NCBI GenBank assembly: GCA_947627205.1
Contig: CANQVE010000021.1
Coordinates: 1-38,835, forward strand
Length of the DNA: 38,835 nt
Direction of reading: 5' to 3'
Source of the DNA: an uncultured Clostridia bacterium
GTDB taxonomy: Bacteria > Bacillota > Clostridia > Oscillospirales > Ruminococcaceae
The notes beneath the pieces were generated by a model. That model was not told the origin of the DNA. It did no database searches and saw only the letters and a list, made by a program, of their open reading frames with translations. Shown here in pieces: positions 21,329 through 38,623 of this stretch. Both the position numbers and the translations under genes were made by a program. Position 1 is the stretch's first letter. Each line of letters starts with the position of its first letter.

Positions 21329-23599
21329 TTATTGACTGCTTATATTTTGATCATTCTGCGGATCATAGTCCAAAAGACGTTTTAACTCACTATCGTTGAC
21401 TGCACGATCCCACTGCTTATATTCAGCGGATCTAAGTTTTTCACCGAAGTAATCCTTTTGGTTTTCGCCCATTTCGGCCTGATGAACCATAATAGCAACT
21501 AGATCAAGATGATCATATTTTTCTTTCTTAAATTCTTCGGATGATTCGGGCAATTGTACGATGTCTACAGAACTCTCAACTAAACAAGGATGCAATTTCA
21601 ATTCAATATTCTTGTGTTTTTTTGTTTCTTTAAAGTAAGCGTAAAATTCATCTTTGCTCGGGCTTCTGAAACCTTGTGTCCGCATAAAAGCAACCCATCT
21701 CCTGTGTTCGATCCATGCAGGCTTGTCTTGCCCAATTCCGCTCAAAAAGAGGTTTTTGCAGGCAATATCTTTGTTCTTCACCTCGAACATATCCTTTTGT
21801 TCGCTTGAAAAACCGCGATACTTCAATTTCAAAAAGCCGAAACCAAACAGTTTATACGGAGCATGTATTGTTCTGGCAATATTAGCCCAATAAGAATATT
21901 CATCTTTTTGCATATTTATCTGGTGGCTTCTGTTATAGATCTGCGCCGTTTGGTCTGCGCTTTCGAGATAATTTACCATAAATACATTTTTACAGCTGAA
22001 ACGGTCGTCAAGCATACAGAAAGGAATAATAAAAGTATCGAGATCAAGATTTAATTTATTTTCAACTCCTCTGACAGCGATAGCTTCCGCAATTTCACGA
22101 TTGAATACTGCAGGTATAATAATATTTCCGCGAGGACAGTTATTTGTCAGCTTCAGCCTTGAAATTTCCATGTTCAATATCTTTGTCATCTCGACAGACA
22201 ACTCATCCGAACCTAATGCTATAACATAATAATCTGTTTTATTCAGAAGATTTTCGGGTAATGATTTAAGATCTCTGACATCTCTTACATATTTGATTTT
22301 CAATTCATGGATATACGGGGGATTAAAGTCTTTGGTCGGATCTTCGGGAAATACCTGCAATAACGGTGAATCTTTTCTGCATGTTTCAAACAATTCAGGA
22401 CAAGACAAAGAAATTTCATCTTTAAATTCCTGATCATTATTTGTTAAAACCGTAACATGCAATTTTATATCGGGAATTTGTCCGCACCAATAAACAGCCT
22501 TAAAAACTTCGCTCGCTATATTGCCTCCGCCGAAAATAGTAATATACAGATCCTTTCTGCCGCTGTTTTCTAACAACAAAGGCATAAACAGCGGAACTTC
22601 AGACATGAGGTTAATTGCTTCGTTCTTATAATCCCTGATGACACGCAAAACGACCTGAGAGGCGTCCTTGTCGGATTTATAGATCTTATTTGCGATTTCA
22701 GCCTGATAATCGTCATGGACAAACAAATAAACATGCGCGGGAGGATCGGGAATGTCGGTATTATCATCTGCAGTATTATCTTTTTTAAACCGGGGGCGCA
22801 GATGAGTATTTTTCATAAGAACGGAGAATGATGATATACTATTTGATACATCGGTGTCCATAAGTAAATAATAAACGCTTTTTGAATGACTTAAAACAAG
22901 GTCTGTTAGATTTGCTTTAACACAAACTGCATTTATCGCTTTTGCTCTGCTCAATAATTCCGAACTTATTTCCGATTCATCATCAATATACGCGTCAGTG
23001 AAAATAATAAGCGGTACGCCGATATAATTTTTTGATCCGAGTATCTTTTTATAATTTTTTTCTTTTACAATATCCTCTGCAAGGCATATAGACATTTCAT
23101 TTAATTTTGAAAAAACAAACTTGTGTCTGAAAGGGTGAACCCATATTCTGAGGCGCGGAAAAACAGTTGTAAGCAAATCGAGGATAAGTGCTCCTCCCAA
23201 TATCGGAGCAAGCACATTTGACAGCGATGAAATAAAGCCATAAACCCCAACCCAATTATACAGCCCCATTTGCTCAAGTATGTTCTTTCCCTCCAGAAGA
23301 TACGCCGTATAATCTTCGTCCATGCTGAACGTCTGCAATGTATGAATAATACTGTCTATGACCTTTTCCCAGCCGGATAATCCCAAAGTCTGAAGCCCGT
23401 CATCGGTTTCTATCACACCGCAGAAATTAACGAAAAATCTTAAGCCGAAAACAAGTACAAATACATATACAGTCAGACCGACAGTTTTCTTCTTCACTTT
23501 TTTGCATATAAGTATACCGATGCCTGTAAGTATAGCAGCGATTATGACCGAAGCCGTTATTACAAAAGGAATACTGTTAAGCACTTCAAGTGTTTGCAT
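21329..23599 (-). CDS. Membrane protein with RCK/TrkA-like Rossmann and RyR-like domains
   Basis: A 756-residue protein, seventh of the cluster. Three TM segments are seen (about 10-33, 39-61, 115-147). Between the last two a re-entrant-like IIHTLQTFSMDEDY occupies the place of a pore loop but has no TVGYG-type filter. Two Rossmann-like domains follow. The first (about 160-330) is degenerate (VPLIIFTDAY, VCVKANLTD, VYYLLMDTDVSNS). The second (about 350-500) has LYITIFGGGNIASE with the nucleotide-loop glycines. The C-terminal part, EHRRWVAFMRTQGF (631-644) and LHPCLVES (669-676), resembles bacterial RyR domains of TrkA-RyR proteins. It starts 3 bases after the RyR gene's stop. It may be a channel or a ligand-gated membrane sensor; ion flux is unproven. 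Confidence 0.7.
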   Translation of the reverse strand: MQTLEVLNSIPFVITASVIIAAILTGIGILICKKVKKKTVGLTVYVFVLVFGLRFFVNFCGVIETDDGLQTLGLSGWEKVIDSIIHTLQTFSMDEDYTAYLLEGKNILEQMGLYNWVGVYGFISSLSNVLAPILGGALILDLLTTVFPRLRIWVHPFRHKFVFSKLNEMSICLAEDIVKEKNYKKILGSKNYIGVPLIIFTDAYIDDESEISSELLSRAKAINAVCVKANLTDLVLSHSKSVYYLLMDTDVSNSISSFSVLMKNTHLRPRFKKDNTADDNTDIPDPPAHVYLFVHDDYQAEIANKIYKSDKDASQVVLRVIRDYKNEAINLMSEVPLFMPLLLENSGRKDLYITIFGGGNIASEVFKAVYWCGQIPDIKLHVTVLTNNDQEFKDEISLSCPELFETCRKDSPLLQVFPEDPTKDFNPPYIHELKIKYVRDVRDLKSLPENLLNKTDYYVIALGSDELSVEMTKILNMEISRLKLTNNCPRGNIIIPAVFNREIAEAIAVRGVENKLNLDLDTFIIPFCMLDDRFSCKNVFMVNYLESADQTAQIYNRSHQINMQKDEYSYWANIARTIHAPYKLFGFGFLKLKYRGFSSEQKDMFEVKNKDIACKNLFLSGIGQDKPAWIEHRRWVAFMRTQGFRSPSKDEFYAYFKETKKHKNIELKLHPCLVESSVDIVQLPESSEEFKKEKYDHLDLVAIMVHQAEMGENQKDYFGEKLRSAEYKQWDRAVNDSELKRLLDYDPQNDQNISSQ

Positions 23600-23602
23600 A
23601 AG

Positions 23603-23887
23603 TTACTCCCCCTTAGAGATCTTATACCCCATTTTAACGATAAGCCTCAGTGTTTCCATAGCCGTGTTTCTGTCATAATCCTTTTCGGATTCGGGCAATT
23701 CGTCATACGGCACAAGAAAAGGAGTAGTTTTAAGCTCTGCGTCCTTTTTCTCTCCGTAAGTCCAACCCTCGGCAATTCTTCCGACCGCCCATACATCATG
23801 GACGTTTGACGCTATCTTTTCAGTCAAATTGAGCAGATCCTCCGACAGAACAACATCAGAAGTATCGATAGGTTTTGGCGTGTACAT
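23603..23887 (-). CDS. Stand-alone RyR (ryanodine receptor) domain protein
   Basis: A 94-residue single-domain protein matching the RyR repeat family (the domain named from ryanodine receptors, also found in bacteria). The family pattern is clear: YTPKPIDTSDVVLSEDL at the start, then NVHDVWAVGRIAEGWTYG, PFLVPYDELPESEKDYDRNT and a last helix LRLIVKMGY. AAGGAGG lies eight bases before ATG. Bacterial RyR domains are thought to bind a ligand or nucleotide, but I know of no proven one. The next gene carries a RyR-like C terminus, so the two may form a sensor pair. Confidence 0.9.
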   Translation of the reverse strand: MYTPKPIDTSDVVLSEDLLNLTEKIASNVHDVWAVGRIAEGWTYGEKKDAELKTTPFLVPYDELPESEKDYDRNTAMETLRLIVKMGYKISKGE

Positions 23888-23924
23888 AATTTTTCCTCCT
23901 TAAAAAATCAAGCATGCTTTTTAA

Positions 23925-25034
23925 TTATGCGGCATAGGGAACTTTTGAAGTTACGGGATAATCGCTTTCATTCCAAGTCCTGCTTTTTTTCATGTATTCA
24001 TCTGTCACTAACAGATAGTCGCTTCGGTCTTTTGACTGATCGTCCCAAGTTACATCGAGTTGATACCACTTGCCGTCTATCTTAACAAGATTCCATGCAT
24101 GGCCTCCGCCGTTCAGACAATTGCCGACCTCAATATCACACTCCACGCCGCAGCCGTTTAAGATCAGCTTTGCGGCGCAGGCATATCCCTCGCATACTGC
24201 ACAGCCGTTTTTCAAAGCTCCGTATGCCGTGTGAGTGATAGGCTCGTATGGTTCTTTTTCGGGATAATAAACATTATCACAAAGATAATCATTTACCGCG
24301 CAAACTATTTCATAATCGGAAAGGCCGTCTGCGCCTATTTGTTTTACGGCGTCATCAACCAACTGAACCGTTTCTGTTTTCATTGATTTCAGCTCGTCAA
24401 CGTTAAACGCATATTTGATAGAGATATAATACTCTCTGCCTTTATTCCATGTTGACCACGACGCCACTCCCGATACATCAATTGGATCTTCTCTCTGCAA
24501 AGCGGTGTAAATTGCCTGCAGGTCGGTATTCATATCAAAATTAAACCCTGAGACCGTAGTAAATTCAACATATTCCGATGTTTGGTCGTATGCGTCGTGA
24601 AAGATACGCATAAGCTCTGTCATATTCGACACTTCGGGAATTCCGTCAGAGTCGGGCGCAGTAGTTCCCGGATCCTCGGACGATTCGGAAGATGAACTGC
24701 CCGACGGCTCGGAAGACGGATCATCGGGCGGATCAACAGGCGGAACAACGGGAGCGGATGATGAACCGATATTGCCATGAGCTTTTTTCGCGTCGTCATG
24801 TTCGTCATCGGTCATGGGTATTCCCGCGGGCTGATAATAAGATCCCGAATACCTGTCGATAAGTTCGTCAAGCAATGCTCCCGAGCCTTGGAAAAAGTAT
24901 TCTTCCTCCGTTTTTCCGTTGCCGAACATGCTAATGCCGTCGTCAATTATTTTCTGAGGCGGTTTCGCACTGCATGCGGAAAGATTTATCGCTGCAATTC
25001 CGCAGCAAAGCAAACTCAATAGTCTTCGGGCCAC
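23925..25034 (-). CDS. Transglutaminase-like lipoprotein (intact triad)
   Basis: A 369-residue secreted lipoprotein with a lipobox at LSAC (Cys21), a Pro/Ser/Asp/Glu-rich linker (about 90-130) and a transglutaminase-like domain (about 235-350). The triad is intact: C281 in NGCAVCEGYA, H312 in GGGHAWNLV, D327 in YQLDVTWDD. In such bacterial proteins the fold acts as a cysteine protease, cross-linker or peptidase outside the cell. The start is GTG at 25034 (GGAGG 10 bases before), overlapping the end of the 1337-residue gene by 19 bases, so translation is probably coupled. Its substrate may be a partner in the same cluster. Confidence 0.87.
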   Translation of the reverse strand: MARRLLSLLCCGIAAINLSACSAKPPQKIIDDGISMFGNGKTEEEYFFQGSGALLDELIDRYSGSYYQPAGIPMTDDEHDDAKKAHGNIGSSSAPVVPPVDPPDDPSSEPSGSSSSESSEDPGTTAPDSDGIPEVSNMTELMRIFHDAYDQTSEYVEFTTVSGFNFDMNTDLQAIYTALQREDPIDVSGVASWSTWNKGREYYISIKYAFNVDELKSMKTETVQLVDDAVKQIGADGLSDYEIVCAVNDYLCDNVYYPEKEPYEPITHTAYGALKNGCAVCEGYACAAKLILNGCGVECDIEVGNCLNGGGHAWNLVKIDGKWYQLDVTWDDQSKDRSDYLLVTDEYMKKSRTWNESDYPVTSKVPYAA

Positions 25035-28000
25035 TGTATCATCGCCTCCTCGCTTATTATATCATTGACCATACTTTTCATTTTTTCAAAAGAGGTCGCC
25101 GTATTTCCGCGAGTCTGCATTTCGCTGAAATATGCGGATATGGTTTTATAACCCAGGCCGTATACATCATTACCGTCTTTATAATACCGATCGAGGCGTG
25201 CGGCATATTCAGTCTCGCCTTTTTCTCTCATAGCCTCAATTTCCACATAAACGGCATGTCCCTCAATGAGAAGCTGAAGCCTCTTTTTCCTTACTGCCTT
25301 TGGAAATGTTTTTGACAGTTCTTTGAGCGGGAGCGCGTCATGTTGCCAGGCGTGCGTCAGTTCATGAATAATGGTACTTTCCATTGCAACGCTCGGACCG
25401 CGGGCTTCTATCCAAAGACGGCGTTTATCATGATTATAGAAACCGACGATCCGACCGTTGTCTATACTGCCTGCCGCTTTTCTGATAGCGTCCGCCGACT
25501 GAAAACCGACATTTATATTTTTTCTGAACTCAATATGATAGTGTGTTTCAAGCATTTGCTTCGTTTCAATGAACAGGCGGTTTATCTCGTCTGTCTGCGT
25601 CTTTTGATGATCGTGGCAATGAGCGCACATGTATCTTCCGTCGCTTAAACGCCAAGCGAAAATGATCTCACGGTTGCAGAAAGAGCAGATCGCTTTAGAA
25701 TTATCTTTAGCAATTGCGGGTTCTGCGGGATCGGGTTCGACAACGGTTTCCGGCTCCGTTCTGCCTAAAAGATCCTTTAAAACGCTATGCAGAGCATCGG
25801 GAGCGAAGATGTCGGGGATATTGCTCATGCCGAAGTGTAAATATCTGCCTTGAATAATTTCCGGCGAGGCGTTGTTATTCCCCGCATTGCTTACCGCTCT
25901 GTTTGAAGCAAGATACCAGTCGAGGTATTCATAAGCCTTATTCAGAATATCGGTGATATTATCATAGAAAGATCTTACCATGCCGTATTCAACACAGCTG
26001 AACTCAATAATGAAGATCCTTACAAATCTGTCATCTTTTGATGTGTCCGAAGAATTTATCCGAGGTATTGCAGCCTTTATCATTTCTTCTGCAGGATAAT
26101 CAAAAGCATGATACATAACGTGTTCTATCAGATCTTTATCTATCGGAATATCGGGTACGGCGGCGATATTCTGATAGGTTTTTGGGAACAAAGTTTTAAA
26201 GAGACCGTTTAATATAACGCACAACAATAACGCCGCCTTTTCGGCTGTTTTCTTCTGTTCTTCGGGAGAGCCTCCGAATTCTTCGCGAAGCAAGTTTACT
26301 TCGAGGATCGGTATATGATAAAACGTGACCGTCTGATACTCCGAACCCGCATTGTTTATGCGGTTTACGCCGGGGCGGTTTTCTCTTGAAAAATTGTTGC
26401 CGCTGCATGTTGAAATATAACCGTAGATGACCTTGCTTACAGTTGCTTCGCAGATATTGCAGTCAAGCGTAGGATTATCAACGCAGTTGTCCAGAACTAC
26501 CCTGTCGGAAAGGACATAGTCGCAGATATCATAATAATCGAAGATCATAGTCGGGTTCGCGGGCTTTGTATACACTATGCCGTTTTCGGTATCGACAGAT
26601 GATACGGTATAATAAGAATTATTAAACCCGACGATCTGCTTTGGAAGATAATAATTCCAAAGATTGCCGCTCAAAACGGGCAGATCGGTATACTCATTAT
26701 TTTTATAAGACATTCTTGCAAGAGAGATCTGTTTTTTCTGCTGTTCTATCATATCGGCGTCTTTCAGCTTTATGTGAACACGATCTACAAAACGGGAAAG
26801 CGTTTGGTCAAACAGACTATCTTCTCTAAAACAAAAATGTTCATAAATATTATGAAACTCACGGGGAGCCCTTACAGTCAGAACAGCGTCCTGTAACAAA
26901 GCGGCAACATCCACATATCCCCACTTGTGTTTTTTAGAGATATTCATCAACTCGTCTTCCGTCAATTCGACATCTGCAAGCGAAGCCAATATCGCCGCCA
27001 GCAATGTCCGTTTGAGGACAGAATCATTCGGCAGTAAAGCCTCATATTCGTTATTGGAATACAAGAGCGAGCGTCTTTTGAAATTCGCGGCGAAATATTC
27101 TCTCATCATATAATAGGGAGAGATCGCATGAATTATAGTGCCTCTGTTTCCCGCATATTTGAACCAGCGCCATAACGCATTGAAGAAATTATAGTCCGTA
27201 TCGTAGACTATTATCATCTTCAGGTCATTCGGCTTTATTGCGTCTATCGGAGAGCTTTGAATAATGGACTTAAGATCGAGATTCTTTTCAAGATAGCGCA
27301 CTATATCGCGTTCATTTCCCTGGCGGGCGCTATCCATAAAATAAGAGTCTCCGCGGTTTTCGCAGGGGATAATATTTATCTCGGGGAGATCATACTTTGC
27401 CGCGACAAGTGCCAGAGGGAACGCCGTTCCCAGAAGCGGAGAACCGGGGTTTCCGATACCGAGGACCTGCTGCGGTCTGTATACGCTTTCCTCTTTCCAT
27501 ATCATTATATTTGTCTTGGCAGCTCTCATGTCGTTGCTGTATGAGGAAAGAGCCGAGCTTTCGGGCAGATATTGCTTTATTTTTGTACGGAGAGTTTTAT
27601 TGTCCTCTTCAGAAATGAAAATATATTGTTTCAGATAGGTGAACGCCTTTAATTTGCAAAATACCTTTTCAATACGGATATTGTCCTGAGACATAAGCAA
27701 ACTGCAATTCGGTATAACGGCGCAGATCATATCGGACGACAAATGTTTATACTGACTGTTAAAGTCAATTGCAATGAGTTCTTCATAAGTACAGATAAGC
27801 ATGCCTGTGTTGTTGCGCGGATCTAACTCACTTACTTCGCTTATCGTCCAAACGCTGTCAATTCCTTTCAGGCTGTTTTTGGTGTCAGAATACACTTTTT
27901 TCAGAGAAGCGACCTCAGCTTTATCCGAGCATACAATGATCGCCGAATAGCCCTGAGAAAGAAAATAGTTCAGATATGTGCAAAGATAAACCGCAAATTC

Positions 28001-29029
28001 ACCGTCTGCATTGTCTCTTATGTTTACAGAGTCTCCGTTCAAAAGACCGACTATTGCATTCTGATAATTATGGTTCTGACGAATGCCGGATTCTCGGAGC
28101 TGGTTAGTTATCACGGCAAGAATTCCCGATTCTTTGCAATTATTTAACTGACGGTTACCGAGATCATTGCTGTTAAGCCCCTGATGATCAATACCGCTGC
28201 CTGTTCCCCTTTCGGAATAAAGGAGCATGCCGCTTTCGGAGAAGATCTCGCGATAACGGTACATAAGAGAATCCATGTCGCCTATCATATTTTCTTTGAT
28301 ATTTGCCGATCCGAAAGTGCCGACGTCATTAGCTTCCGGAGCTTCGAGAAAAAGCTGTATCTGCTCGATAATCAAGAACGCAAGCATCGGCACAAGATAA
28401 ACGGATTTTGAAATTGAAAGGATCGCTTTGTTCCATTCTTCACTTCCCCAAAGAACAGAGTAATACAAAACCGCAAATTCAAGGATCCAGATAAATACCG
28501 ATACGCATTTAATTCCTTTTACCCAGATACCGATGCAAAAGCCCTTGTCGGTCAGAGTGATCTTTCCTGCTTTTTCGCTGTAAAATTTATTTACAATAAA
28601 CCAAGGGCAACGGGTTATTCTTTCTGCGCCTGTACAGTTCTTGTATTCGATAAACTTCTGCATACGGCTGAACACAAGTTTTGTAACTGCGAGGACAATA
28701 ATAAACGCGACCGTATAGATTAGATTGAGTCCGAAATTGCACAAAACGATATAGATAAGTTCATATGCCCTGTTCGGTAAAACATTATCCACAAAAGGAG
28801 CAATAAACTGGGAATTGATAATTCCGTCCGCAAACAAAATTGCATACGACGACACAGCCGAATTAGCTGTAACAAGAGCAAAGAGAGTTCCGATAATTAT
28901 ATTTCTGAAATGAAGATAACGCTTTTCGATATTATAGGAGAGTGCCTTTACTATCAGCTTGTTAAGACCGAAGAATATAAAAAACCAGACAAGGAGAAAT
29001 ACAAAAAAACCGAGAATTTTAATTATCAT
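25016..29029 (-). CDS. Large membrane protein with C-terminal zinc ribbon and HExxH peptidase
   Basis: A 1337-residue protein, fourth in the cluster. Five hydrophobic segments lie in residues 1-225. The middle (about 320-620) has the order of a degenerate superfamily-2 helicase fold: NAIVGLLNGDSVNI at the place of the nucleotide loop but no GKT, AIIVCSDKAEV, MLICTYEEL, then IFISEEDN. No Walker A Lys or DEAD box was found. The end carries a CxxC/CxxC zinc ribbon (C1115, C1118, C1135, C1138). The peptidase motif HELTHAWQH follows (H1222, E1223, H1226), with a likely third ligand in LLIEGHAVYVE (E1256); this resembles DA1-type peptidases. AAAGGAGG lies five bases before ATG 29029; the longer frame to 29056 is not needed. 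Confidence 0.8.
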   Translation of the reverse strand: MIIKILGFFVFLLVWFFIFFGLNKLIVKALSYNIEKRYLHFRNIIIGTLFALVTANSAVSSYAILFADGIINSQFIAPFVDNVLPNRAYELIYIVLCNFGLNLIYTVAFIIVLAVTKLVFSRMQKFIEYKNCTGAERITRCPWFIVNKFYSEKAGKITLTDKGFCIGIWVKGIKCVSVFIWILEFAVLYYSVLWGSEEWNKAILSISKSVYLVPMLAFLIIEQIQLFLEAPEANDVGTFGSANIKENMIGDMDSLMYRYREIFSESGMLLYSERGTGSGIDHQGLNSNDLGNRQLNNCKESGILAVITNQLRESGIRQNHNYQNAIVGLLNGDSVNIRDNADGEFAVYLCTYLNYFLSQGYSAIIVCSDKAEVASLKKVYSDTKNSLKGIDSVWTISEVSELDPRNNTGMLICTYEELIAIDFNSQYKHLSSDMICAVIPNCSLLMSQDNIRIEKVFCKLKAFTYLKQYIFISEEDNKTLRTKIKQYLPESSALSSYSNDMRAAKTNIMIWKEESVYRPQQVLGIGNPGSPLLGTAFPLALVAAKYDLPEINIIPCENRGDSYFMDSARQGNERDIVRYLEKNLDLKSIIQSSPIDAIKPNDLKMIIVYDTDYNFFNALWRWFKYAGNRGTIIHAISPYYMMREYFAANFKRRSLLYSNNEYEALLPNDSVLKRTLLAAILASLADVELTEDELMNISKKHKWGYVDVAALLQDAVLTVRAPREFHNIYEHFCFREDSLFDQTLSRFVDRVHIKLKDADMIEQQKKQISLARMSYKNNEYTDLPVLSGNLWNYYLPKQIVGFNNSYYTVSSVDTENGIVYTKPANPTMIFDYYDICDYVLSDRVVLDNCVDNPTLDCNICEATVSKVIYGYISTCSGNNFSRENRPGVNRINNAGSEYQTVTFYHIPILEVNLLREEFGGSPEEQKKTAEKAALLLCVILNGLFKTLFPKTYQNIAAVPDIPIDKDLIEHVMYHAFDYPAEEMIKAAIPRINSSDTSKDDRFVRIFIIEFSCVEYGMVRSFYDNITDILNKAYEYLDWYLASNRAVSNAGNNNASPEIIQGRYLHFGMSNIPDIFAPDALHSVLKDLLGRTEPETVVEPDPAEPAIAKDNSKAICSFCNREIIFAWRLSDGRYMCAHCHDHQKTQTDEINRLFIETKQMLETHYHIEFRKNINVGFQSADAIRKAAGSIDNGRIVGFYNHDKRRLWIEARGPSVAMESTIIHELTHAWQHDALPLKELSKTFPKAVRKKRLQLLIEGHAVYVEIEAMREKGETEYAARLDRYYKDGNDVYGLGYKTISAYFSEMQTRGNTATSFEKMKSMVNDIISEEAMIQWPEDY

Positions 29030-29040
29030 GCTCTCCTCCT

Positions 29041-31077
29041 TTATGCCTGAGGCCAATACAATCTGCTGTCTGTCACATCATCCACATGATCTCTTGAAAT
29101 GGCGGGTTCGGTTTCAAAAATATTGCCGTCCGAGCCGTCAACAGACTGCACGGGATCATATATATCGATAAGTCCCGAGAAAAATTCCAACTTATCGATA
29201 TGGATATTGGCTTGGTTTATATGCCAGCTTTTTGCCTTTATCACCCATTCGGTGTTTTTTACAGCACGTTTTTTAAGGTGGATATGTCTTTCGATATAAT
29301 CGAGTTTATTTACTAAGTTTATATATTCGTGCAATTGATTCGCTCTGTCAAAATAACCTGTTATATACCTGTCCATTTCGCTTTCGAGCATTGTAAGAGA
29401 ACGGCTTACTTCCCTGCGGTAATAGCTAAGCGGAAGTCTCCAGGTAAAAAGCATTAAAATGAAAGAAAAACCGATGTAGCCCGCAAAATACAATGCGGTC
29501 TCGGCCGATTCAAAATTGTATGGCTGAAGAACGCCGTATAACAATGCCACAAGCCCCAAAAGCAACACTATAAGCAAGAAAAAGTTTTTGGCAGATACCG
29601 ACTGCATACACTTGATATAATGACGAATATTATTATCCTCTTGTGCAAGTGCGGTTTCCATATTCAACTGATCCTGAAAACAAAGCGAGGGAGTCATCTG
29701 CGGTCGGTTCATTTTATCAAGCAGGCTTTTCTCCATATCGGACAGAGAGGCAATTTCCTGCTTGGTAGTATCGCTTTCGGTATAGGCTTTTCGGTGCCAG
29801 CCTCTTTCCTCGGCTTTTCTTCCTGCGAGCGTTTCGGAATACTTTTCTCCAAGACAGGCAGAGTATTCTTCTAAACTGCTTCCGAGCTGACTGAAAATTT
29901 TACTTATCTGATCATAAGTTTTTCCCCATCTGTCTGAAAGAGTTCTCACAGGCGACAGCTTGCCTTTAAACTCTGTTAAAATTCCTTTCGGATCAAAGTG
30001 CTTATTTCTTTTGGCGTTTTCGCTCTCAAAAATGCTGTCCGTTACGCTTATTTCGTCATCAGACGGAACGACAGACTCGGGTAAAGTTGATTCAGTGTCT
30101 GATGTTACATATCCCTCTACAGAATTATCGACATACCTCCTAAGACGCTCTCTGTAATTTGACAGCATCTTTGCATACTTTTCCTGTATTTTGACGTCAT
30201 CGGTTTTTACGATCTGTTTCCAATGTGCCGAGCACATTTCGTTTAAAGACATTGACCTGCCCATTCCCTCGGCAATATCAAAATCGGTGGTAGAAAAATC
30301 TACAATTCTGAGAAGCGCAGTAATATCTTTGCTTCGGTTCTGTTTGTCGGTCAGGAGTTCAAATATCTGGTATCCGTTTAGTACTTCTTTAAGAGCATGT
30401 AATGTTGAAACATTAGCCGAGGCATTTGACGCAGTTTTACGGTCTTTTTCATACTGCTTTATCAGATCGGTAAAAAAAGCGTAAAGAGAATTTGCAGGCG
30501 TACCGTCACTTAGTTTCGGACAGCTGTCATAAATCTTCTTATTCTTTTCTATATAGCTGTTCCATGCTTCTTTTAAAGAATCCAAGTCATTTTCTTTTTC
30601 CTCGGGAACGCCTATTTCCCGCAAAAGCAAACTGCAATCCTCTGCCAATCTTGCGGAACCCATATACTGTTCGTCCAATGCATGGATCTCTTTTACAACG
30701 CTTGCTTCATAGAGCATTATGAGATTAACAGCGACCTGTACCCCAAGACCGGAACGGATAAGAATGCCCGACTGTCTCAGATCGAAATCAATATCAAGCA
30801 GTCTGGAGAGAAGAGTATCTCTCCAGACTTTAACGCCTCGGTCGTAATCACTTCGCATGGCTATTATTATCTGATAACTGTCTATGTTAGATAAAAACCT
30901 GTCGAGATACATCCTTATATCGGACGCCGCTTTGCGAAAGGAAAGACCTGTGCCCTCTCCTATGCGAACGTCCTGTGTCAGGTATAACTCTTTTCTTGAA
31001 CGCTTTTGATAGAAGAAAAAGTCGAAGTTGTTCATATTCAGACACTTATCAACATTTATAAAAAAGCGGAATGCCAT
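29041..31077 (-). CDS. Two-TM helical protein of unknown family
   Basis: A 678-residue protein I do not recognise. Residues 1-490 are soluble and largely helical, with charged heptad-like stretches (about 155-185, 200-215, 290-315, 385-450) and an acidic Ser/Thr-rich linker (about 322-355). Two TM helices lie at about 498-518 and 526-547, joined by a short loop, so both large parts should face the cytosol. A helical tail (550-640) follows, then an acidic end. It starts 15 bases after the tubulin-like gene with GGAGAGGAG. It is suited to be a membrane anchor or linker for the tubulin-like polymer (inference from context). Confidence 0.75.
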   Translation of the reverse strand: MAFRFFINVDKCLNMNNFDFFFYQKRSRKELYLTQDVRIGEGTGLSFRKAASDIRMYLDRFLSNIDSYQIIIAMRSDYDRGVKVWRDTLLSRLLDIDFDLRQSGILIRSGLGVQVAVNLIMLYEASVVKEIHALDEQYMGSARLAEDCSLLLREIGVPEEKENDLDSLKEAWNSYIEKNKKIYDSCPKLSDGTPANSLYAFFTDLIKQYEKDRKTASNASANVSTLHALKEVLNGYQIFELLTDKQNRSKDITALLRIVDFSTTDFDIAEGMGRSMSLNEMCSAHWKQIVKTDDVKIQEKYAKMLSNYRERLRRYVDNSVEGYVTSDTESTLPESVVPSDDEISVTDSIFESENAKRNKHFDPKGILTEFKGKLSPVRTLSDRWGKTYDQISKIFSQLGSSLEEYSACLGEKYSETLAGRKAEERGWHRKAYTESDTTKQEIASLSDMEKSLLDKMNRPQMTPSLCFQDQLNMETALAQEDNNIRHYIKCMQSVSAKNFFLLIVLLLGLVALLYGVLQPYNFESAETALYFAGYIGFSFILMLFTWRLPLSYYRREVSRSLTMLESEMDRYITGYFDRANQLHEYINLVNKLDYIERHIHLKKRAVKNTEWVIKAKSWHINQANIHIDKLEFFSGLIDIYDPVQSVDGSDGNIFETEPAISRDHVDDVTDSRLYWPQA

Positions 31078-31092
31078 CGAAAACTCCTCTCC

Positions 31093-34000
31093 TTATTTGT
31101 TTTCGTAGCTTTGTTTAAGAAGTATATCATACTGATCTTTCAATAATCTCTTTGTACTGTTTGAAACCTTTCCGTCGGTATTCTTACCTGCTTTACAGTT
31201 ATTGAAGATTTTTTCAAGGATAGCTTTTACAGCCTTGTTGACATACACTTCGCTCTTATCAAACAGTATCTCGCAGAATTCACACAATGTAATATACAGT
31301 CCGTTAAACAGCTCGCTCCAATCTTCTACAGGGATATGCGAACGCATTTCCATGAAAATATCGAAGATGTTCATATCTTCTGTATCATCTGAGCTTTCCG
31401 ATTGGATAAGGTCTTCTATAAACCGGTTTTCGAGGATATTCTCAAACAGTTCTTCGCTTGTACTATAGCCTTTCATCTTCTCCGTAACGGCTTTAGCATC
31501 ATGGAGAATAGCATGTTTAAGTTTTCTGTTATAAAACAGTGCGTCAAACACATCGCTGTATCCGTTTCCGATAAGTTTTCCGCACTTTTTAACAGGTTTA
31601 GCCTGCGTGTAGCTGTTGGTATAAACATACCATGTCGGGCGGGGATTTCCGTTTTCATCGGGATGATCGTCGTCGTCGAACAGCCTGAAGCAATCAAATC
31701 CCATAGCATAAATAAATGCTTTCAGAACATCAAGATGGTCTTCATGTCTTTGTTCATGCTGAATTGATGGAATAAAGCCCTCTTCATGCCAATTGCAATT
31801 CAGATGAGGATTGATCTCAACGAGCATTTCGTCCGTGTTGTAGTTAAATTTATGTTCCGTACCGAGCTGTATGATACGATCGGTATATGCGACAGCATTT
31901 CTTGAGCCGTCTTTATACTTAGTCAGCATCTCGATAGTAAAATCATAGCTGAGACGCATACAAGATATCTCTGTATCGCTGAACTCCGAATTTATGATAA
32001 CAGTTGCGTTGGCACTTGTATTTGAAAGATAAAATTTAGCAGTTTCGGAGGTATCCGGTTCGAGTTCGGAATTTGTTTCGGCACAAACAGGTGCCATAGC
32101 CAAAAATGTAAGCTCGGTGTCCTCATGCATGCTTTCTGTCGTCAGCATGGGAGCCGCCACTTTAAGAGCAGTAGAAATTCTTTTCTGCGCATAAGCCCTC
32201 ATTGCTTCTTCATATCCCTCGTCATCAGGGATCATTTGCTCGGCGAGCTCAAATTCTTTTATCAGGGCTTCTCTTGCCGTGAGGTTTACAATGCCTATGC
32301 CGTGTTCAACGACGCTGTTTCTGATAGTTTTGATAACGGCATTATTAAACACGGATTCCAGCTTTTTCTTGTCTTCACGAATTCTGCGCTCTTTTGCAGC
32401 TTTTGTTTCCGTTGTGGTATTAAGCATATATGAACGCGACTGTACAAGATAGATCTGTTCAAATATCGCTGTCTTGGTCTCGTCGGACAGATCCAGTGTA
32501 TTCTGTACAGCAAAATCAAAAGACATCTGACGGAATGCTTCCTTTGAACAGTAGATGCCGTCCTGACCATAGGGGAAATGAATATTTTCGAGGCGGGCAA
32601 TATTCTCTTTGTTTCTATCGATCTTAGCGGAAACTGTACTGAAGAATACAGCGTAATTATCGGAAAGCTGAATAAGACGCTCAAGAACAAGCTGAGAAAC
32701 ATTGTATTTCAAACTGTTTTCAAGGAAATCGCGAGTTGTGGATATATGAGTATCACATACTTCATGAAGTCTTTTCTTGAGTTTTAAAAGCGCCTTATCC
32801 TCGCCGTTGATAGCCTTTCCGATCGGTCCGAGCAATTTCCATATAGGGTTGCGTTTATCGCGAATGGAGCCCAGGTATTCTGCGGGGCCCTGAACGCCCT
32901 CATGCGTATTGTCGAAATCTTCTTTTGTATATGCAGACAGATCCACGTCGGTGATATCTTTTTTCAGTTCTTTTATCTTTTCTTCAAGGCGGTTTATGAT
33001 ATCGTAGATAAGGAATCTTGCCGTTACGGGATGGACCTTGGCAAGGAACTGATAGATGCACTCGGGCTTATCCTTGTGAAATTCCATTACTTCCTTGCTT
33101 GCAGGGAACAGATTATCTGCAAAACCATTTGATTTGGTATCTATAAGATGCTTTGCATATTTGCTGTAGTTTCTCATTCCCTCCCATACATCATTTATCT
33201 GAGCCTCAGCGTCAGAGAAGTTCTTCATCTTCTGATCGTCTATTTTGCAGGCTTCTTCCATTGCTTTAGTCTCTTCGGAATTAACCAGATCTTCTACCAT
33301 CTGATCGAGCGCTGAAATAAATTCGGTAGCTCTTGAAATATATTCGTTGTCCCGCTCAATATAAGCCTCTTCGGCAAACTTTCCTAACTTTGCATGTTCG
33401 CCTGTTACCTCTTCTTCGAAAATCTCCACATAAGAATTTTTGAGTTCGGGCATTTTAACGTTATCGCCTGACGCCATCTTAGACAAAGCAGCTCTTACCT
33501 CAGAGTTGAACCTCTGATCAATGAGAAGCCACTCTTTTTGAACAAGATCTCTTACAACCGTGAGTGTAACATATTCCTGTGCCGTCCTGACAGGATAGAT
33601 AAGTCTGCACAGACCTGCGCCCGCAATGCGGTTCATACCGCCCTTTTTAATGAGTTTCAGGACAAAGTTATCCTCTATGGAGAGCGCATCTGATGTTACG
33701 GGGCTGAACATAAGGACAAATGCAACATGAGCTATGTAGTTTATAATCTCATCAATTCTGACATCGCCCATTGTTCCGAGATCACCGCTCTTTTCTATCA
33801 GATATAGATAATTGTACGGAACATTATTTACCGATTTATCGTCGCTTTTATAGAACTCAAGAGACAAGTCGGTTTTTATTTGTTTGCTGTAATCGGGATG
33901 AATATGCATGTAAAACGCATTCAGCTCTTTCATGCAGGTATAGCCGTTTACGCAAACAGCGTCCTTGTTATTACGCGAGGGCTGAACATCTTCAACGATA

Positions 34001-34557
34001 TCAGGTCCCACAAACATTCCGCGTATAATGCAGTTTTTTATTCCTGCCTGAGATTTTATAAGATCACGGATATAGAAAGGTATATTGAGAAATAGACCTG
34101 CTCCCGTACCGCCTGTGATAGAGCCGACGATTATTACGGTCAGATTCTTATTATGCGGATTACCGTCAACCTTACGAATTCTTGTGATCTCCTGGAGAAT
34201 GGGATCAAATTTTCCGCTTTCGACTGACGCAAGAAAAGCAAGACGCGAGAGCGTTCTTATCTGACCTGCGCCGTCCGTCATAGTGCGCTCTCTCAGAAAA
34301 TCATTGTCGGGGAACCATTCAAGGTATTCGGGATGAGCTTTGAGATAAGAGTTGACTACTATGTCGTCACTTGTCTGGATCATCCTCATCTGATGCTTGT
34401 CTGCAAGTTTGGCAAGATCGTTTACATTTGTATCTACGCCTATAACCGACACATATTTTCTGTCTTCGCTGCTTAGGGAATCGCTTATTGCGGCTGCGAT
34501 CTTACAGCCTATGCCGCCGATTCCTAAAACTAAGGTTGGAATTTGGTTCATGCTCAT
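31093..34557 (-). CDS. Tubulin/FtsZ-like GTPase-domain protein
   Basis: A 1154-residue protein with an N-terminal tubulin-superfamily domain. PTLVLGIGGIGCKI (residues 8-20) is the first nucleotide loop and VSVIGVDTN the second strand. GAGQIRTLSRLAF lies around residue 100. VIIVGSITGGTGAGLFLNIP contains the tubulin signature GGTGAG at 149-154. The remaining ~900 residues are long, mostly helical and without a recognised domain. FtsZ is about 380 residues, so this belongs to the large tubulin-like type seen next to VWA genes, not to division FtsZ. It would bind GTP and possibly polymerise at the membrane. AAAGGATC lies about nine bases before ATG; the gene is second in the cluster. Confidence 0.87.
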   Translation of the reverse strand: MSMNQIPTLVLGIGGIGCKIAAAISDSLSSEDRKYVSVIGVDTNVNDLAKLADKHQMRMIQTSDDIVVNSYLKAHPEYLEWFPDNDFLRERTMTDGAGQIRTLSRLAFLASVESGKFDPILQEITRIRKVDGNPHNKNLTVIIVGSITGGTGAGLFLNIPFYIRDLIKSQAGIKNCIIRGMFVGPDIVEDVQPSRNNKDAVCVNGYTCMKELNAFYMHIHPDYSKQIKTDLSLEFYKSDDKSVNNVPYNYLYLIEKSGDLGTMGDVRIDEIINYIAHVAFVLMFSPVTSDALSIEDNFVLKLIKKGGMNRIAGAGLCRLIYPVRTAQEYVTLTVVRDLVQKEWLLIDQRFNSEVRAALSKMASGDNVKMPELKNSYVEIFEEEVTGEHAKLGKFAEEAYIERDNEYISRATEFISALDQMVEDLVNSEETKAMEEACKIDDQKMKNFSDAEAQINDVWEGMRNYSKYAKHLIDTKSNGFADNLFPASKEVMEFHKDKPECIYQFLAKVHPVTARFLIYDIINRLEEKIKELKKDITDVDLSAYTKEDFDNTHEGVQGPAEYLGSIRDKRNPIWKLLGPIGKAINGEDKALLKLKKRLHEVCDTHISTTRDFLENSLKYNVSQLVLERLIQLSDNYAVFFSTVSAKIDRNKENIARLENIHFPYGQDGIYCSKEAFRQMSFDFAVQNTLDLSDETKTAIFEQIYLVQSRSYMLNTTTETKAAKERRIREDKKKLESVFNNAVIKTIRNSVVEHGIGIVNLTAREALIKEFELAEQMIPDDEGYEEAMRAYAQKRISTALKVAAPMLTTESMHEDTELTFLAMAPVCAETNSELEPDTSETAKFYLSNTSANATVIINSEFSDTEISCMRLSYDFTIEMLTKYKDGSRNAVAYTDRIIQLGTEHKFNYNTDEMLVEINPHLNCNWHEEGFIPSIQHEQRHEDHLDVLKAFIYAMGFDCFRLFDDDDHPDENGNPRPTWYVYTNSYTQAKPVKKCGKLIGNGYSDVFDALFYNRKLKHAILHDAKAVTEKMKGYSTSEELFENILENRFIEDLIQSESSDDTEDMNIFDIFMEMRSHIPVEDWSELFNGLYITLCEFCEILFDKSEVYVNKAVKAILEKIFNNCKAGKNTDGKVSNSTKRLLKDQYDILLKQSYENK

Positions 34558-34624
34558 AAAATATGATCCTTTCTGATATAATTTACTTTTCGTTTATAAA
34601 ACTACCCGCTAATAAAATACCTGC

Positions 34625-36814
34625 TTAATCAGTCATCCAGATACGCCATATATCTTTCGTACCGTCGGAAGTTTTAAAATATATATAGCGATTTGAAAGA
34701 TCCTGATCCGAGGCTTCGCGCTTTCCGTCTTTTTTCACGGTCTTGTGCATGTGAGCTTCAATACTGCGAAGATTCTTTTCGGGCTTAGTCGTTGATGTGC
34801 CGTATTTTACAACCGTTTTAGCTATAGAATCGCCTGTGACAGTGACTGTTTCGCCGGATTCGGCTATAAGTTTTAAACCGTGGAATGTAACGCAGCACGC
34901 TCTTGTCGGCAGCAGGAAATGACCTGAAAAGAAGCCCAACGTGATACTGTCGGCCATTCCTTTCATCATAATGCCTCTTCCGTCCTCCTGGATCCGCCAG
35001 CATTCATAGTGTACGGTCTGCCCGCTGAACTTCTTCTTGATGAAAAGAAGAAAAACAATGTAAATGATCAGAAGAATAATTCCTAAAATAATCGGAATTT
35101 CCTTTGCGTCCTCCGCGCTCGGAACAATGGTAAAGGAGGCTTTTTCCGTCACGCTTTCATCAAGCGACACGAAAACCTTTACTGCATAATCGCCTGCCTG
35201 CAAGCCTAATATCGGCAATAAAGCAGGACACTCGGGGATAAGCGTATAACTGCCGTCGTCATTTTGTTTCAGCTTGCAGTCAGCCTTTATGTTTCCTGCC
35301 TTGTAAATAAGGTTATTATCCGATATTGGTGTTACGCTGACGTCGAGTATCTCAAGTTTTACTCCTATATTTTCCTGCTCTTCTTTGCTGAGCGGTTTCC
35401 CGTCGTTTGTCAGCTCGAATTTTACAGTGTTTGTATCGTCAAAATTAAGCTGTTTCATTTCAGATCTTTGATATGACAAGCCCAAAGGCTGTGTCTTTTT
35501 TATCCCGAAATGATATACGACTTGAGCAATATTGAAGCTCACTTCATTGACGAACGGAGCGTAACCGGGGATGTTTATTATTCCTCGGACGACATTGTTT
35601 CCTTGTGTTAATGTAACTCCTGTCAGATCGGTTCCGCTGCCCTTATCAACGATATTTCCGTCAACTTCATACTCAATATTCCAGGAAATCTGATCAGGAA
35701 GATCTGAATCGGAGATAACTTCATCTGTTCCGGGGACGATAGGAATAATTCTGATATCAACTTTATCGCCCGTCAGAAGTTTTGACATATCGTCAATGAC
35801 AACGCCGTTTCTGCTTATTTCCGCTTTTAATGCAATAGCAGGCTCGACCTGGATAGTCATATTATTGATATCAATATCCGACGAAAAGGAAACCGTATAA
35901 GTTCCCGCAGGAATTACCTGAAGCTCGCCTTTGGCATTCTGTTTATTTATCACAGCGGCATTTCCGAAAAGCGTGTTTATCGGAGAGCCGTTCGTCAGGT
36001 TTGTTGCATCAAGCGAAAGATTTCGGCTTATATTCAAATTCTCTTTGTCTGTTTTTGCACCGACTACCTTGGCGTCTGATTTTTGAGAAAGAATTGAAAG
36101 GCTGTATAAAGGAAGTTTTGAAGTAACCGTTATTTTTTTGCTGTCAAGCTGTGATATATTGTCGGGAATAAGTCTGCCGGATACAAGGCCCGCAACGTCC
36201 TGCATAGCGCTGATTATTTCGGTATCGCTGTCCGCTTCAAATGTATGAAGATGATTTTTAGCGTCCTCGATTGCCGTAGCGGCGGCTCCCATGCCTAAAT
36301 AAACAACATTAAGCGGAGTGCCGTTATTCATGGTGTTGTTCTTATATGAATTCAGTTTATTCTGCAATTTTTCGGACATTGATATTTCGCCGTCGGTAAG
36401 TATAACAAGCCAATACTGTGCCGTTGTATCGCTTTCTTTGATACTGTTCAGCTTACTTCGGGCAGTGTCAAGCGCCGCTCCGGGAGTACCGCCCGAATTT
36501 TTCCAGTCGCGGATCTTGCGGATAGTGCCGGGCAGATCGGATGTATCCATTTTTACGGCGGTATAAGGATCGCTCATAAAGGTTATGTATAATTCGTCCT
36601 GCTCGTTCAGCAACGCAACCAGGGCCTGCATGGCATAATCCGTATATGACCATCTTTCTCCGAGCATACTGCCCGAATCGTCATAGACAACAGATATTAT
36701 TTTTTTTGAAGCACGGACTTCATCTCCGCCTGCCGCAAAAGAAGAACTGCTGAACATAAAACAAAGGACGCATATACAAAGGATAATTGAACATACATTT
36801 TTTAATTTATTCAT
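34625..36814 (-). CDS. Membrane-anchored VWA-domain protein
   Basis: A 729-residue protein, first gene of the cluster. A signal peptide (1-27, cut near SFA/AGG) precedes a von Willebrand A domain (about 38-210) with a full MIDAS: DxSxS as D45, S47, S49, then T110 in GGTPGAAL and D141 in LTDGE. Beta-rich segments (about 225-560, Ig-like by look) and one TM helix (about 571-592, IPIILGIILLIIYIVFLLFI) follow. The ~135-residue cytosolic tail is basic in its last part and also beta-rich. The domain outside should bind a metal-dependent ligand, and the tail could pass a signal to the tubulin-like protein. AAGGAG lies just before the ATG. Confidence 0.88.
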   Translation of the reverse strand: MNKLKNVCSIILCICVLCFMFSSSSFAAGGDEVRASKKIISVVYDDSGSMLGERWSYTDYAMQALVALLNEQDELYITFMSDPYTAVKMDTSDLPGTIRKIRDWKNSGGTPGAALDTARSKLNSIKESDTTAQYWLVILTDGEISMSEKLQNKLNSYKNNTMNNGTPLNVVYLGMGAAATAIEDAKNHLHTFEADSDTEIISAMQDVAGLVSGRLIPDNISQLDSKKITVTSKLPLYSLSILSQKSDAKVVGAKTDKENLNISRNLSLDATNLTNGSPINTLFGNAAVINKQNAKGELQVIPAGTYTVSFSSDIDINNMTIQVEPAIALKAEISRNGVVIDDMSKLLTGDKVDIRIIPIVPGTDEVISDSDLPDQISWNIEYEVDGNIVDKGSGTDLTGVTLTQGNNVVRGIINIPGYAPFVNEVSFNIAQVVYHFGIKKTQPLGLSYQRSEMKQLNFDDTNTVKFELTNDGKPLSKEEQENIGVKLEILDVSVTPISDNNLIYKAGNIKADCKLKQNDDGSYTLIPECPALLPILGLQAGDYAVKVFVSLDESVTEKASFTIVPSAEDAKEIPIILGIILLIIYIVFLLFIKKKFSGQTVHYECWRIQEDGRGIMMKGMADSITLGFFSGHFLLPTRACCVTFHGLKLIAESGETVTVTGDSIAKTVVKYGTSTTKPEKNLRSIEAHMHKTVKKDGKREASDQDLSNRYIYFKTSDGTKDIWRIWMTD

Positions 36815-36896: not shown

Positions 36897-36925
36897 ATTA
36901 TATCACATTTTGTCAGAAAAGTCAA
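36897..36925 (-). promoter_or_regulatory. Promoter of the seven-gene tubulin-like/VWA system
   Basis: Minus strand TTGACT (36925-36920), 17-base spacer, TATAAT (36902-36897), about 82 bases before the VWA start. No other good promoter was seen inside the cluster, where the largest gap is 67 bases. The 36926-37084 stretch upstream holds no gene that I can see. Confidence 0.78.
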
Positions 36926-37128: not shown

Positions 37129-37205
37129 CTGGGTGTGGCGCAGATTGGTAGCGCGCTACCTTGGGGTGGTAGAGGCCGCAGGTTCAAATCCTGTCACTCA
37201 GACCA
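37129..37205 (+). tRNA. tRNA-Pro (anticodon GGG)
   Basis: The acceptor CTGGGTG pairs with CACTCAG (one G-U), followed by A73 and encoded CCA. The D stem is GCGC/GCGC with normal G18G19 in its loop AGATTGGTA, the anticodon stem CTACC/GGTAG and the T stem GCAGG/CCTGT with canonical loop TTCAAAT. The loop TTGGGGT gives anticodon GGG, reading CCC and CCU. The 3' end faces an integrase gene 132 bases away and is the likely attachment site of an integrated element. Confidence 0.95.
37180..37205 (+). other. Likely attachment site (tRNA 3' end)
   Basis: Integrases of this class commonly recombine at the T-arm/3' end of a tRNA gene. The integrase lies directly downstream of this tRNA. The matching direct repeat would be at the other end of the element, outside the window, so the exact core cannot be given. 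Confidence 0.4.
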
Positions 37206-37311: not shown

Positions 37312-37346
37312 CGGACGCTTTTCACTCAGGCGTCCGCTATTTTTTG
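37312..37346 (+). terminator. Hairpin at the end of the integrase gene
   Basis: CGGACGC (37312-37318) pairs with GCGTCCG (37330-37336), followed by CTATTTTTTG. The T run is on the plus strand, so it would stop transcripts entering from the tRNA side; it lies against the integrase stop codon. Confidence 0.6.
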
Positions 37347-38623
37347 CCTTTATCGTTGTTGTCATCAAGGTACGGAGCAATAAATGTTCCGTGAATTTCT
37401 GCCGCTAAAAGGTGTTTGCGGTTCTTGGAAATATGCAGATAGATGTTGCTTGTGGTTTCTACATCGGCGTGTCTGAGCCAAGCCTTGACCGCCTCCAAGT
37501 CCCAACCTTTATCGAATAAAATGCTCGCGGTACTATGCCGCAAATCGTGGAAACGCATTTCGGGCAAGCCGTGACGTTTCAACGATCTTTGAAATGTGCG
37601 TGTTACGCTGTCGGGACGGTATAATCTTCCGTCGGGTTGTGTGAATATGTAATCCGACTGCGTGTATAATTCTTCGTACTCAATACGGTTTCTTTCCTGC
37701 CGTTCCCTTATTGCAAGGAGCAAGTCCTTGATTTCGGGCAGAAGTTCAAATGTTGCGTGACTGCTCTCGGTTTTAGTAGTGTCTTTGTAAACGATTGTCT
37801 TGTTCTTGACCACCGTAGACTTTATTTCAAGCGTGTTTTTCTCGAAATCCACAGCGTCCCATTTAAGTCCCAGAACCTCGCTCTTGCGAAGTCCGTAGAT
37901 AATCGTCACATAGACAAGCGGGTAAATTTCCTCGCCTTGTAATGCTCTAAGCATTTCGTTTGCCTCGTCCGCTGTCATATAGACGTTCTTAGCGGATTTA
38001 GCGTTGGTCCTCGCCCGCTTTGGAACAGGAACATTCTGTGCGGGATTGCCGTTGATGTACTCAAATATAACGGCATCGTTGAGAACAGTTCGGATAAGAG
38101 CCGCGTGACCGCGAACCGAGGTTATATCCAGACCGCCTGTCTTTCCGTCCAATCTGCCGCCTGTTGATTTGTATTGATAATAGTCGGCGAAGTGACGGGG
38201 TTTAAGGTCTGTAAGCCGAAGTCCCAGCTCTGAAAAGTAAGGGATAATGTGCCGATTTGTATAGATTTCGTACTTCTCCCAAGTTGATTGTTGTATCTGC
38301 CCGCGCTTTCGGTTGAGCCAATCTGAAAGAAAATCTGTAAACAGTACGTTTGCAGAACAGCAAAGAGCGGGTTCGTCAAGTTCCGTGTGCAAAGTCCCGC
38401 GTTCGTTCAGCGTTTTCTCCAAATGGTCATAGTCCGCAATCTTGCTGAACATAATCTTTGCCGCTATGTTCTTGTTGCGCGGCGTTGCCTCAAGATTGCT
38501 TGAAATCCACCGACATACCTTTTTATCGGGTTTGTCGGTTTTTTTGTCGGGGAAAAGCACCGCAGCAGAACCATAGAAAACCATCTGCCATTTGCCGTTC
38601 TTTTCGTGTAAACTGCCTGTCAC
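37337..38623 (-). CDS. int: Tyrosine-type site-specific integrase
   Basis: A 428-residue tyrosine recombinase of the integrated-element/phage kind. Residues 1-75 form an arm-type DNA-binding region (MTGSLHEKNGKWQMVFYG). A SAM-like core-binding domain spans about 90-190 and the catalytic domain about 212-400. Catalytic residues are all visible: R246 in YGLRKSEVLGL, K284 in TTKTESS, H359 and R362 in FHDLRHS, H385 in WLRHAD, and Tyr395 in SNIYLH. The start is GTG at 38623, with GGAGG 12 bases before. It lies beside tRNA-Pro, pointing toward it. The element it serves extends past the window end, so excisionase and cargo are not seen. Confidence 0.94.
   Translation of the reverse strand: MTGSLHEKNGKWQMVFYGSAAVLFPDKKTDKPDKKVCRWISSNLEATPRNKNIAAKIMFSKIADYDHLEKTLNERGTLHTELDEPALCCSANVLFTDFLSDWLNRKRGQIQQSTWEKYEIYTNRHIIPYFSELGLRLTDLKPRHFADYYQYKSTGGRLDGKTGGLDITSVRGHAALIRTVLNDAVIFEYINGNPAQNVPVPKRARTNAKSAKNVYMTADEANEMLRALQGEEIYPLVYVTIIYGLRKSEVLGLKWDAVDFEKNTLEIKSTVVKNKTIVYKDTTKTESSHATFELLPEIKDLLLAIRERQERNRIEYEELYTQSDYIFTQPDGRLYRPDSVTRTFQRSLKRHGLPEMRFHDLRHSTASILFDKGWDLEAVKAWLRHADVETTSNIYLHISKNRKHLLAAEIHGTFIAPYLDDNNDKGKK

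Follow-up and report, generated by a model that had tools for sequence, protein, structure and literature searches.

Four neighboring genes of a seven-gene operon, encoding a VWA protein, a tubulin-like protein (TUB), a linker (COIL) and a metallopeptidase-like membrane protein (PEP), form a genuine unit that is conserved across relatives, present in some genomes and absent from others. The operon lies in a 38,835-nt stretch of DNA (here called the window) from a gut bacterium. The first-pass annotation had taken all seven genes for one system; this holds for the four-gene core, whereas the transglutaminase (TGL), RyR and RCK genes are variable additions. We tentatively read the operon, giving this somewhat less than an even chance, as a variant of the tubulin-vWA systems in which a membrane complex is combined with ADP-ribose sensing and the outcome is conflict or damage control. 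What we observed directly are the genes and their families, the fixed core order, the recurrent partners, the predicted RCK fold and an insertion polymorphism. The likeness of the RCK/RyR sensing domains to binders of ADP-ribose signals suggests a defence or stress machine that had gone unrecognised; its defence role we infer.

Layout of the operon and its proteins

All seven minus-strand open reading frames were present where they had been annotated: VWA (34625-36814, 729 aa), TUB (31093-34557, 1154 aa), COIL (29041-31077, 678 aa), PEP (25016-29056, 1346 aa from a TTG start or 1337 aa from the ATG at 29029), TGL (23925-25034, 369 aa), a stand-alone RyR gene (23603-23887, 94 aa) and RCK1 (21329-23599, 756 aa). 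They had been described as overlapping or separated by no more than about 67 bases, and the largest gap we measured was indeed 67 (VWA-TUB). The next genes are spaced by 15 bases (TUB-COIL) and 11 bases (COIL-PEP, or a 16-base overlap if PEP starts at TTG), followed by a 19-base overlap (PEP/TGL) and gaps of 37 (TGL-RyR) and 3 bases (RyR-RCK1). The promoter assigned to the operon is present as a minus-strand promoter-like site at 36897..36925 (TTGACT-17-TATAAT, an 11/12 match), but such sites are not above shuffle level in the region (37 matches versus 40.4 in shuffles; sd, 6.8). Domain calls on the window proteins used Pfam, NCBIfam and PADLOC profiles. PADLOC defence profiles matched none of the seven proteins at E values up to 1, and NCBIfam gave only matches below the cut-off, and none at all for TUB, the small RyR protein and RCK1.

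TUB matches Pfam Tubulin_2 (PF13809) far above the cut-off (6.4e-48; 164.3 bits versus 27), and the glycines and threonine of its GGTGAG nucleotide loop (G149, G150, T151, G152 and G154) are invariant in 17 aligned sequences, which upholds its annotation as a tubulin-like protein. The loop pattern GGTGxG occurs in 65/69 open reading frames. By its sequence TUB is a member of the FtsZl1-type Tubulin_2 family, with putative GTP-driven assembly. The VWA protein had been called a signal-peptide protein with a MIDAS. Its MIDAS residues are conserved (D45, S47, S49 and T110 nearly invariant and D141 invariant in 13 aligned sequences, one of which has no N terminus), but its Pfam VWA score falls below the cut-off (4.8e-4; 20.8 bits versus 23.8). 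Hydrophobic stretches lie at residues 10 and 573, and the predicted architecture is a signal peptide, an extracytoplasmic MIDAS domain, a C-terminal transmembrane (TM) helix and a short tail. COIL has a C-terminal hydrophobic hairpin and no credible Pfam match; the window copy lacks an N-terminal stretch of ~70 residues that its relatives have. Membrane segments are thus predicted in three of the four core proteins, PEP being the third.

PEP consists of N-terminal TM helices, a large middle domain, a zinc ribbon and a metallopeptidase-like end with the motif HELTHAWQ. It matches the Pfam putative metallopeptidase family DUF6782 (1.6e-6; 28 bits versus a cut-off of 27), and its best NCBIfam match, Hvo_1808 (1e-6), is below the cut-off. 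No DA1-like family was among its listed Pfam matches, so the DA1-like label was an analogy. At family level, five TM helices are predicted and loops 1 and 3 are positively charged, and by the positive-inside rule the large C-terminal part, and with it the bulk of PEP, is predicted to be cytosolic. The annotated HExxH peptidase with a zinc ribbon stands as to its motifs (the window protein keeps both zinc ribbon and HELTH, and DUF6782 is just above the cut-off), but an outer peptidase layer is not supported. Of the proposed defence, stress or envelope machine with a polymer-VWA link, the conserved unit is supported. Among 18 uncut relatives from the order, HExxH is present at the site in 12 and absent in 6. 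HELTHxWQ is found in 69/91 open reading frames over 79 loci, a count that is partly circular because the scan itself used this motif as one of its two patterns; the 12/18 figure is free of this circularity.

By eye, the middle domain of PEP looked like MrfA/YprA-type helicases with a lost Walker A. Against MZB-domain proteins, hhalign gave E values of 0.18 to 0.41 on a poor comparison panel (five proteins from the order, and the four under 1200 aa), and when the PEP alignment was searched as a profile against the PDB, the best E value was 0.73. On these results we dropped the SF2 helicase reading. Nor did hhalign relate PEP or COIL convincingly to GAP1 or DO-GTPases; the best match, between the zinc-ribbon/peptidase end of PEP and DO-GTPase, had an E value of 0.0072 at 5% probability.

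The annotation of TGL as a transglutaminase lipoprotein with an intact triad agrees with our results: it matches Pfam Transglut_core (2e-11), has a lipobox-like N terminus and has as its best NCBIfam match a transglutaminase-related lipoprotein family (4.6e-22, below the cut-off). The Cys-His-Asp triad is intact in TGL and in most of 27 aligned transglutaminase domains. In many loci the domain forms one protein with PEP, at the end predicted to be cytosolic, whereas separate transglutaminases have a lipoprotein, signal-peptide or membrane-anchor-like N terminus. These predicted placements conflict. Elsewhere in the window, an 871-aa MORN-repeat protein (13129-15744) carries a transglutaminase-like domain in which the triad His position is Tyr in the alignment.

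The two remaining proteins had been annotated as a RyR-domain protein and an RCK/RyR membrane protein, and both assignments were confirmed. The small protein matches Pfam RyR (PF02026; 1.3e-35). RCK1, which has no credible Pfam match, has a helical membrane N terminus with no classical K+ filter seen by eye, a tandem RCK gating-ring fold predicted by AlphaFold2 and VIA-align, and a C-terminal RyR motif whose profile (15 sequences including the window) matches 6uhi_A in the PDB (3.8e-15). Its top fold match is GsuK, of which structures bound to ADP and NAD have been solved, according to the entry titles. RyR-domain phage proteins bind 2'/3'cADPR (PMC13232231). With residue equivalence set by spacing from the RyDEP description in that source, the small RyR protein keeps the ligand residues H30, W33 and D72 and has T55 in place of the phosphate-contacting His (H100); it thus lacks the full H, W, H, D set, which is a functional feature of RyDEP and not the definition of the PF02026 family. 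A permissive H-W-H-D pattern occurs in 35/35 RCK1 proteins having a C terminus; the exact RyDEP spacing is found in just 9 of them, and the window RCK1 has longer loops. Ligand sensing by these proteins had been proposed in the first-pass annotation. The relation to RyDEP, together with linked TIR genes (see below), makes ADP-ribose-type nucleotides the candidate ligand class; the link can fairly be inferred for the family and is less secure for the window.

Conservation and distribution of the core

With a PEP alignment as the query, a scan of 84,980 species genomes yielded 197 relatives, of which 79 loci were taken in; all carry titles of Clostridia or of groups that we take to be Clostridia. 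A scan of genome contigs with the window tubulin as the sole query found no relative. PEP was found in 79 loci, COIL in 77, TUB in 69 and VWA in 63. Where enough upstream DNA was available, TUB was present in 65/66 loci and VWA in 57/58 (at least 6.6 kb before the linker); the exception, L154, has the linker and PEP without tubulin or VWA. In 63/63 loci with all four genes, order and strand are kept with gaps of <400 bases, so the layout in the window is not a product of chance, and the four genes are co-conserved as one unit. Distances of the four core proteins correlate at 0.62 to 0.88 over 62 loci including the window, and none of 999 permutations was as high. The window diverges from the rest, sharing 17 to 23% identity with its nearest relatives in this set. 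The core also occurs in records titled as isolates and not as MAGs, namely Pseudoflavonifractor An44, Faecalicatena contorta ET51, Lachnoclostridium An131 and Butyrivibrio FCS014.

Within the order, Tubulin_2 occurs in 32/394 genomes, including short or weak forms such as those in G031 and G103. Twenty of 30 fetched Tubulin_2 neighborhoods are window-type loci with a PEP homologue. Five others (L043, L046, L050, L051 and L055) have DO-GTPase and GAP1 homologues instead of PEP, with a Pfam check done for L043. Of the rest, L054 fits neither type, L061 and L062 hold a short Tubulin_2, and the sequence of L063 and L064 does not extend far enough for a call. The window's own genome has a second, shorter Tubulin_2 of 757 aa (G000:C4:44342-45289; L062:5905-8178) followed by an 884-aa multi-TM protein, and a similar pair occurs in its genus relative G031 (L061).

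Searching plasmids with the window tubulin returned one record, from Azospirillum. Besides TUB (283.6 bits) it encodes a VWA protein and a PEP-like protein; a further protein, of 710 aa, shows no detectable relation to COIL. The PEP-like protein has neither zinc ribbon nor HExxH, which would tentatively make the middle domain of PEP older than its peptidase end; the age is tentative because the PEP relation is weak (13.9 bits; an E value of 2.8e-6 that applies to seven proteins only). Phage and plasmid searches with the PEP of L079 gave no match.

The full-length tubulin-like gene was found by BLAST in 1/37 genomes of the genus, that of the window itself. In the close relative G005, the operon is absent at the same site: the flanks lie ~220 bases apart, compared with 15.7 kb in the window, and are 98% identical to it on the tRNA-integrase side and 92% on the response-regulator side. 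Presence/absence between close relatives is thus confirmed. Beside the operon are tRNA-Pro(GGG) (37129-37205), with a perfect promoter-like site, and a tyrosine integrase gene on the opposite strand (37337-38623). A tRNA-integrated element usually starts at the 3' end of the tRNA. We rejected the operon as cargo of this integrase, as such an element would run the other way from the tRNA and the operon is missing from G005 although both the tRNA and the integrase region are there. The tRNA-Pro and integrase likely mark where a separate element is attached, one that continues beyond the contig end.

This distribution bears on a reading from ordinary cell biology that we consider somewhat unlikely, an envelope-remodelling or stress machine. 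The VWA protein would sense the wall or surface, TUB would assemble at the membrane, the peptidase and transglutaminase would modify envelope proteins, and RyR/RCK would report the metabolic NAD or ADP-ribose state and not infection. Such a role would agree with the membrane remodelling that Makarova and Koonin proposed for FtsZl1 (PMC2875224), with the membrane segments of the core, with the ADP- and NAD-bound structures of GsuK and with the lack of PADLOC matches to known defence families. However, the rarity of the full-length gene in the genus, its presence/absence in close relatives and the TIR enrichment described below are more typical of conflict systems.

RyR, RCK and TIR partners

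RyR and RCK genes recur as partners of the tubulin core across relatives. With home-made profiles (E value of 1e-4) and flanks that were often cut, the 79 loci gave transglutaminase in 25, RCK1 in 20, RCK2 in 18 and TIR in 17; FtsK (7), the RyR profile (5) and macro (1) were rarer. Where at least 5 kb of downstream sequence was available, RCK1 or RCK2 was present in 26/52 loci and TIR in 17/52. The flanks contain 24 TIR genes in 643 kb (37 per Mb). The order as a whole has ~0.28 per Mb (226 matches in 345 genomes, each taken to be 2.3 Mb), rising to 1.06 per Mb when genomes that bear TIR are considered by themselves; Poisson values for this excess are indicative only, since the collections and search profiles differ and the loci are related. 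All 24 linked TIR genes match Pfam TIR_2, 9 also LRR_8 and 3 TPR repeats. F9, S11 and E78 are invariant, and all 24 proteins keep Glu at column E78, which we take to be the position of the expected NADase Glu. The window contig has no TIR gene; its genome has five TIR_2 matches, all on other contigs.

RCK2 occurs in 4/394 genomes (E value of 1e-30) and lies within 6 kb of the core in 4/4. RCK1 occurs in 33/394, and 19 genomes share it with Tubulin_2 versus ~2.7 expected (Fisher test, 1.6e-15, ignoring relatedness and including some pairs on different contigs); under stricter sets it is found in 16/29 Tubulin_2 genomes. Conversely, 14/33 RCK1 genomes have no Tubulin_2 and 13/32 Tubulin_2 genomes have no RCK1. 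Among 15 core-distant RCK1 places that we fetched (three of <5 kb), TIR is present in L195, L196, L197 and L201, and a stand-alone RyR in L197, L201, L202 and L204 (4/15). RyR, RCK and TIR may form a nucleotide-signalling defence module of their own, found at the same mobile spots as the tubulin system but not acting together with it. These six core-distant places would fit such a module, as would the half of the loci with enough flank that have no RCK gene. Against it stand the restriction of RCK2 to the vicinity of the core, the co-occurrence of RCK1 with Tubulin_2 and the spacing of the RyR and RCK genes in the window by 3 and 37 bases, and we hold it to be distinctly unlikely.

Several further genes were seen at these places. 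Downstream of the Tubulin_2 locus L054, where no COIL-PEP pair was found, L070 (2130-8003) encodes two RCK1-type proteins and then a TIR-like protein, so the RCK/TIR linkage is not limited to window-type loci. In L197, a double-AAA protein with a Peptidase_M41 end (9244-12618) lies between two RCK1 genes, and a large open reading frame resembling it adjoins RyR in L202. A family of 374- to 382-aa proteins follows the TIR gene (L093:18909-20033, L101:18345-19493 and L102:19389-20531; the same family is in L103 and L135); its N terminus is hydrophobic, and it is possibly a transporter.

An FtsK/SpoIIIE ATPase gene directly follows PEP in seven loci (L144, L146, L147, L149, L150, L152 and L155), and in L147, L149 and L152 small open reading frames that we named WXG100-like by eye come after it. 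The operon might on this account belong to secretion or contact machinery of a type VII-like kind, and L072 has YukD and an FHA-FtsK ATPase ~10 to 15 kb from the VWA gene (one genome). Yet FtsK was not found in 72/79 loci (flanks often cut) or in the window, and the three small open reading frames tested gave no Pfam WXG100 match. We regard this role as very improbable.

Proposed mechanism and relation to known systems

In the conflict or damage-control reading that we prefer, the core would comprise a TM-anchored extracytoplasmic VWA protein, a cytosolic tubulin-like putative GTPase, a linker with a TM hairpin and the multi-TM PEP. This membrane complex may be switched when the VWA protein meets a surface or envelope change, or when TUB assembles in a GTP-dependent manner. 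The peptidase and the outside transglutaminase, judging by their motifs, could act as effectors. Fold, conserved residues and gene linkage suggest that RCK1 and the small RyR protein would sense a nucleotide of the ADP-ribose type, of which the linked TIR proteins are the probable source in relatives, and signal to the machine or gate ion flux. The patchy, present/absent distribution and the TIR linkage are consistent with damage control or cell shutdown as the result, in phage attack or a similar insult. In favor of this reading are the fixed order and correlated distances of the core, the excess of TIR genes and the RCK genes beside it, the predicted RCK fold, the RyR profile match and H-W-H-D pattern of RCK1, the cADPR-binding phage RyR proteins and the operon-free site in G005. 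Weighing against it are the lack of a TIR gene in the window, the Thr in the small RyR protein, the scarcity of the exact RyDEP spacing, the lack of a visible K+ filter and of PADLOC matches, the PEP relatives without HExxH, the genomes with only one of RCK1 and Tubulin_2, the core-distant RCK1-RyR-TIR modules and the locus L154.

A bacterial immune pathway that senses TIR-made (cyclic) ADP-ribose through RyR domains on a CASTOR/GsuK-like RCK membrane protein, and couples this to GTP-driven assembly of a tubulin-like protein linking a surface VWA sensor and a membrane peptidase, seems to us unlikely. If true, it would give ADP-ribose immune signalling a cytoskeletal arm, and prokaryotes a counterpart to the control of RyR by cADPR. 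The preferred reading, if it holds, would join FtsZl1-type tubulins, bacterial RyR domains and RCK channels, which we have not found joined in print; in titles and abstract openings, we found no description of Tubulin_2 with RyR, RCK or linked TIR genes. It opens concrete tests of the ligands of bacterial RyR domains and of the function of the FtsZl1 machine: FtsZl1-type tubulins were described in 2010 without a tested role in the text consulted (PMC2875224), and a 2026 preprint describes phage RyR domains that bind TIR-made signals (PMC13232231).

Known systems share parts of this arrangement. Thoeris uses TIR-made cyclic ADP-ribose signals (PMC13232231), and the relatives of the window resemble it in their linked TIR genes with an invariant Glu and in a sensor fold that binds cADPR in phages. 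They differ in that the window has no TIR and the receptor would be an RCK/RyR membrane protein. The phage RyDEP proteins of the same source share with the window RyR the PF02026 fold and the H, W and D ligand residues, whereas the window RyR is host encoded, stands beside or is fused to RCK and, in the small protein, has T for the phosphate His. RCK1 shares its predicted tandem RCK gating-ring fold with CASTOR/DMI1, GsuK and Slo-type channels and differs from them in its C-terminal RyR domain and a membrane part without a recognised filter.

Among tubulin systems, GAP1-N2 DO-GTPase systems of Firmicutes, with a proposed conflict role (Kaur et al. 2020, PMC7159879), have, like the window, a tubulin and an extracellular VWA near the membrane. 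As described in the text of that source, TIR effectors and tubulins belong to one large conflict-system network, TIR being placed with MoxR-vWA systems and tubulins with DO-GTPase/GAP1. DO-GTPase and GAP1 profiles (five members; E value of 1e-3) matched neither the 79 loci nor the window and matched five other loci of the order. The window system is an FtsZl1 family member but has none of the partners that define the GTPase conflict systems in print. The first-pass annotation was right that Makarova and Koonin 2010 (PMC2875224) placed tubulin/FtsZ-like genes next to VWA genes and proposed membrane remodelling. Their FtsZl1 operons and the window share the tubulin-like family, an adjacent VWA gene, membrane neighbors and a large protein with a central coiled or helical region. 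The partners named in the main text are kinases, a GTPase and OmpA; in their place, compared with that text, the window encodes a linker, a peptidase, a transglutaminase and RyR/RCK proteins. The supplementary partner families A1-A2 and B1-B9 may include that of the linker or of PEP.
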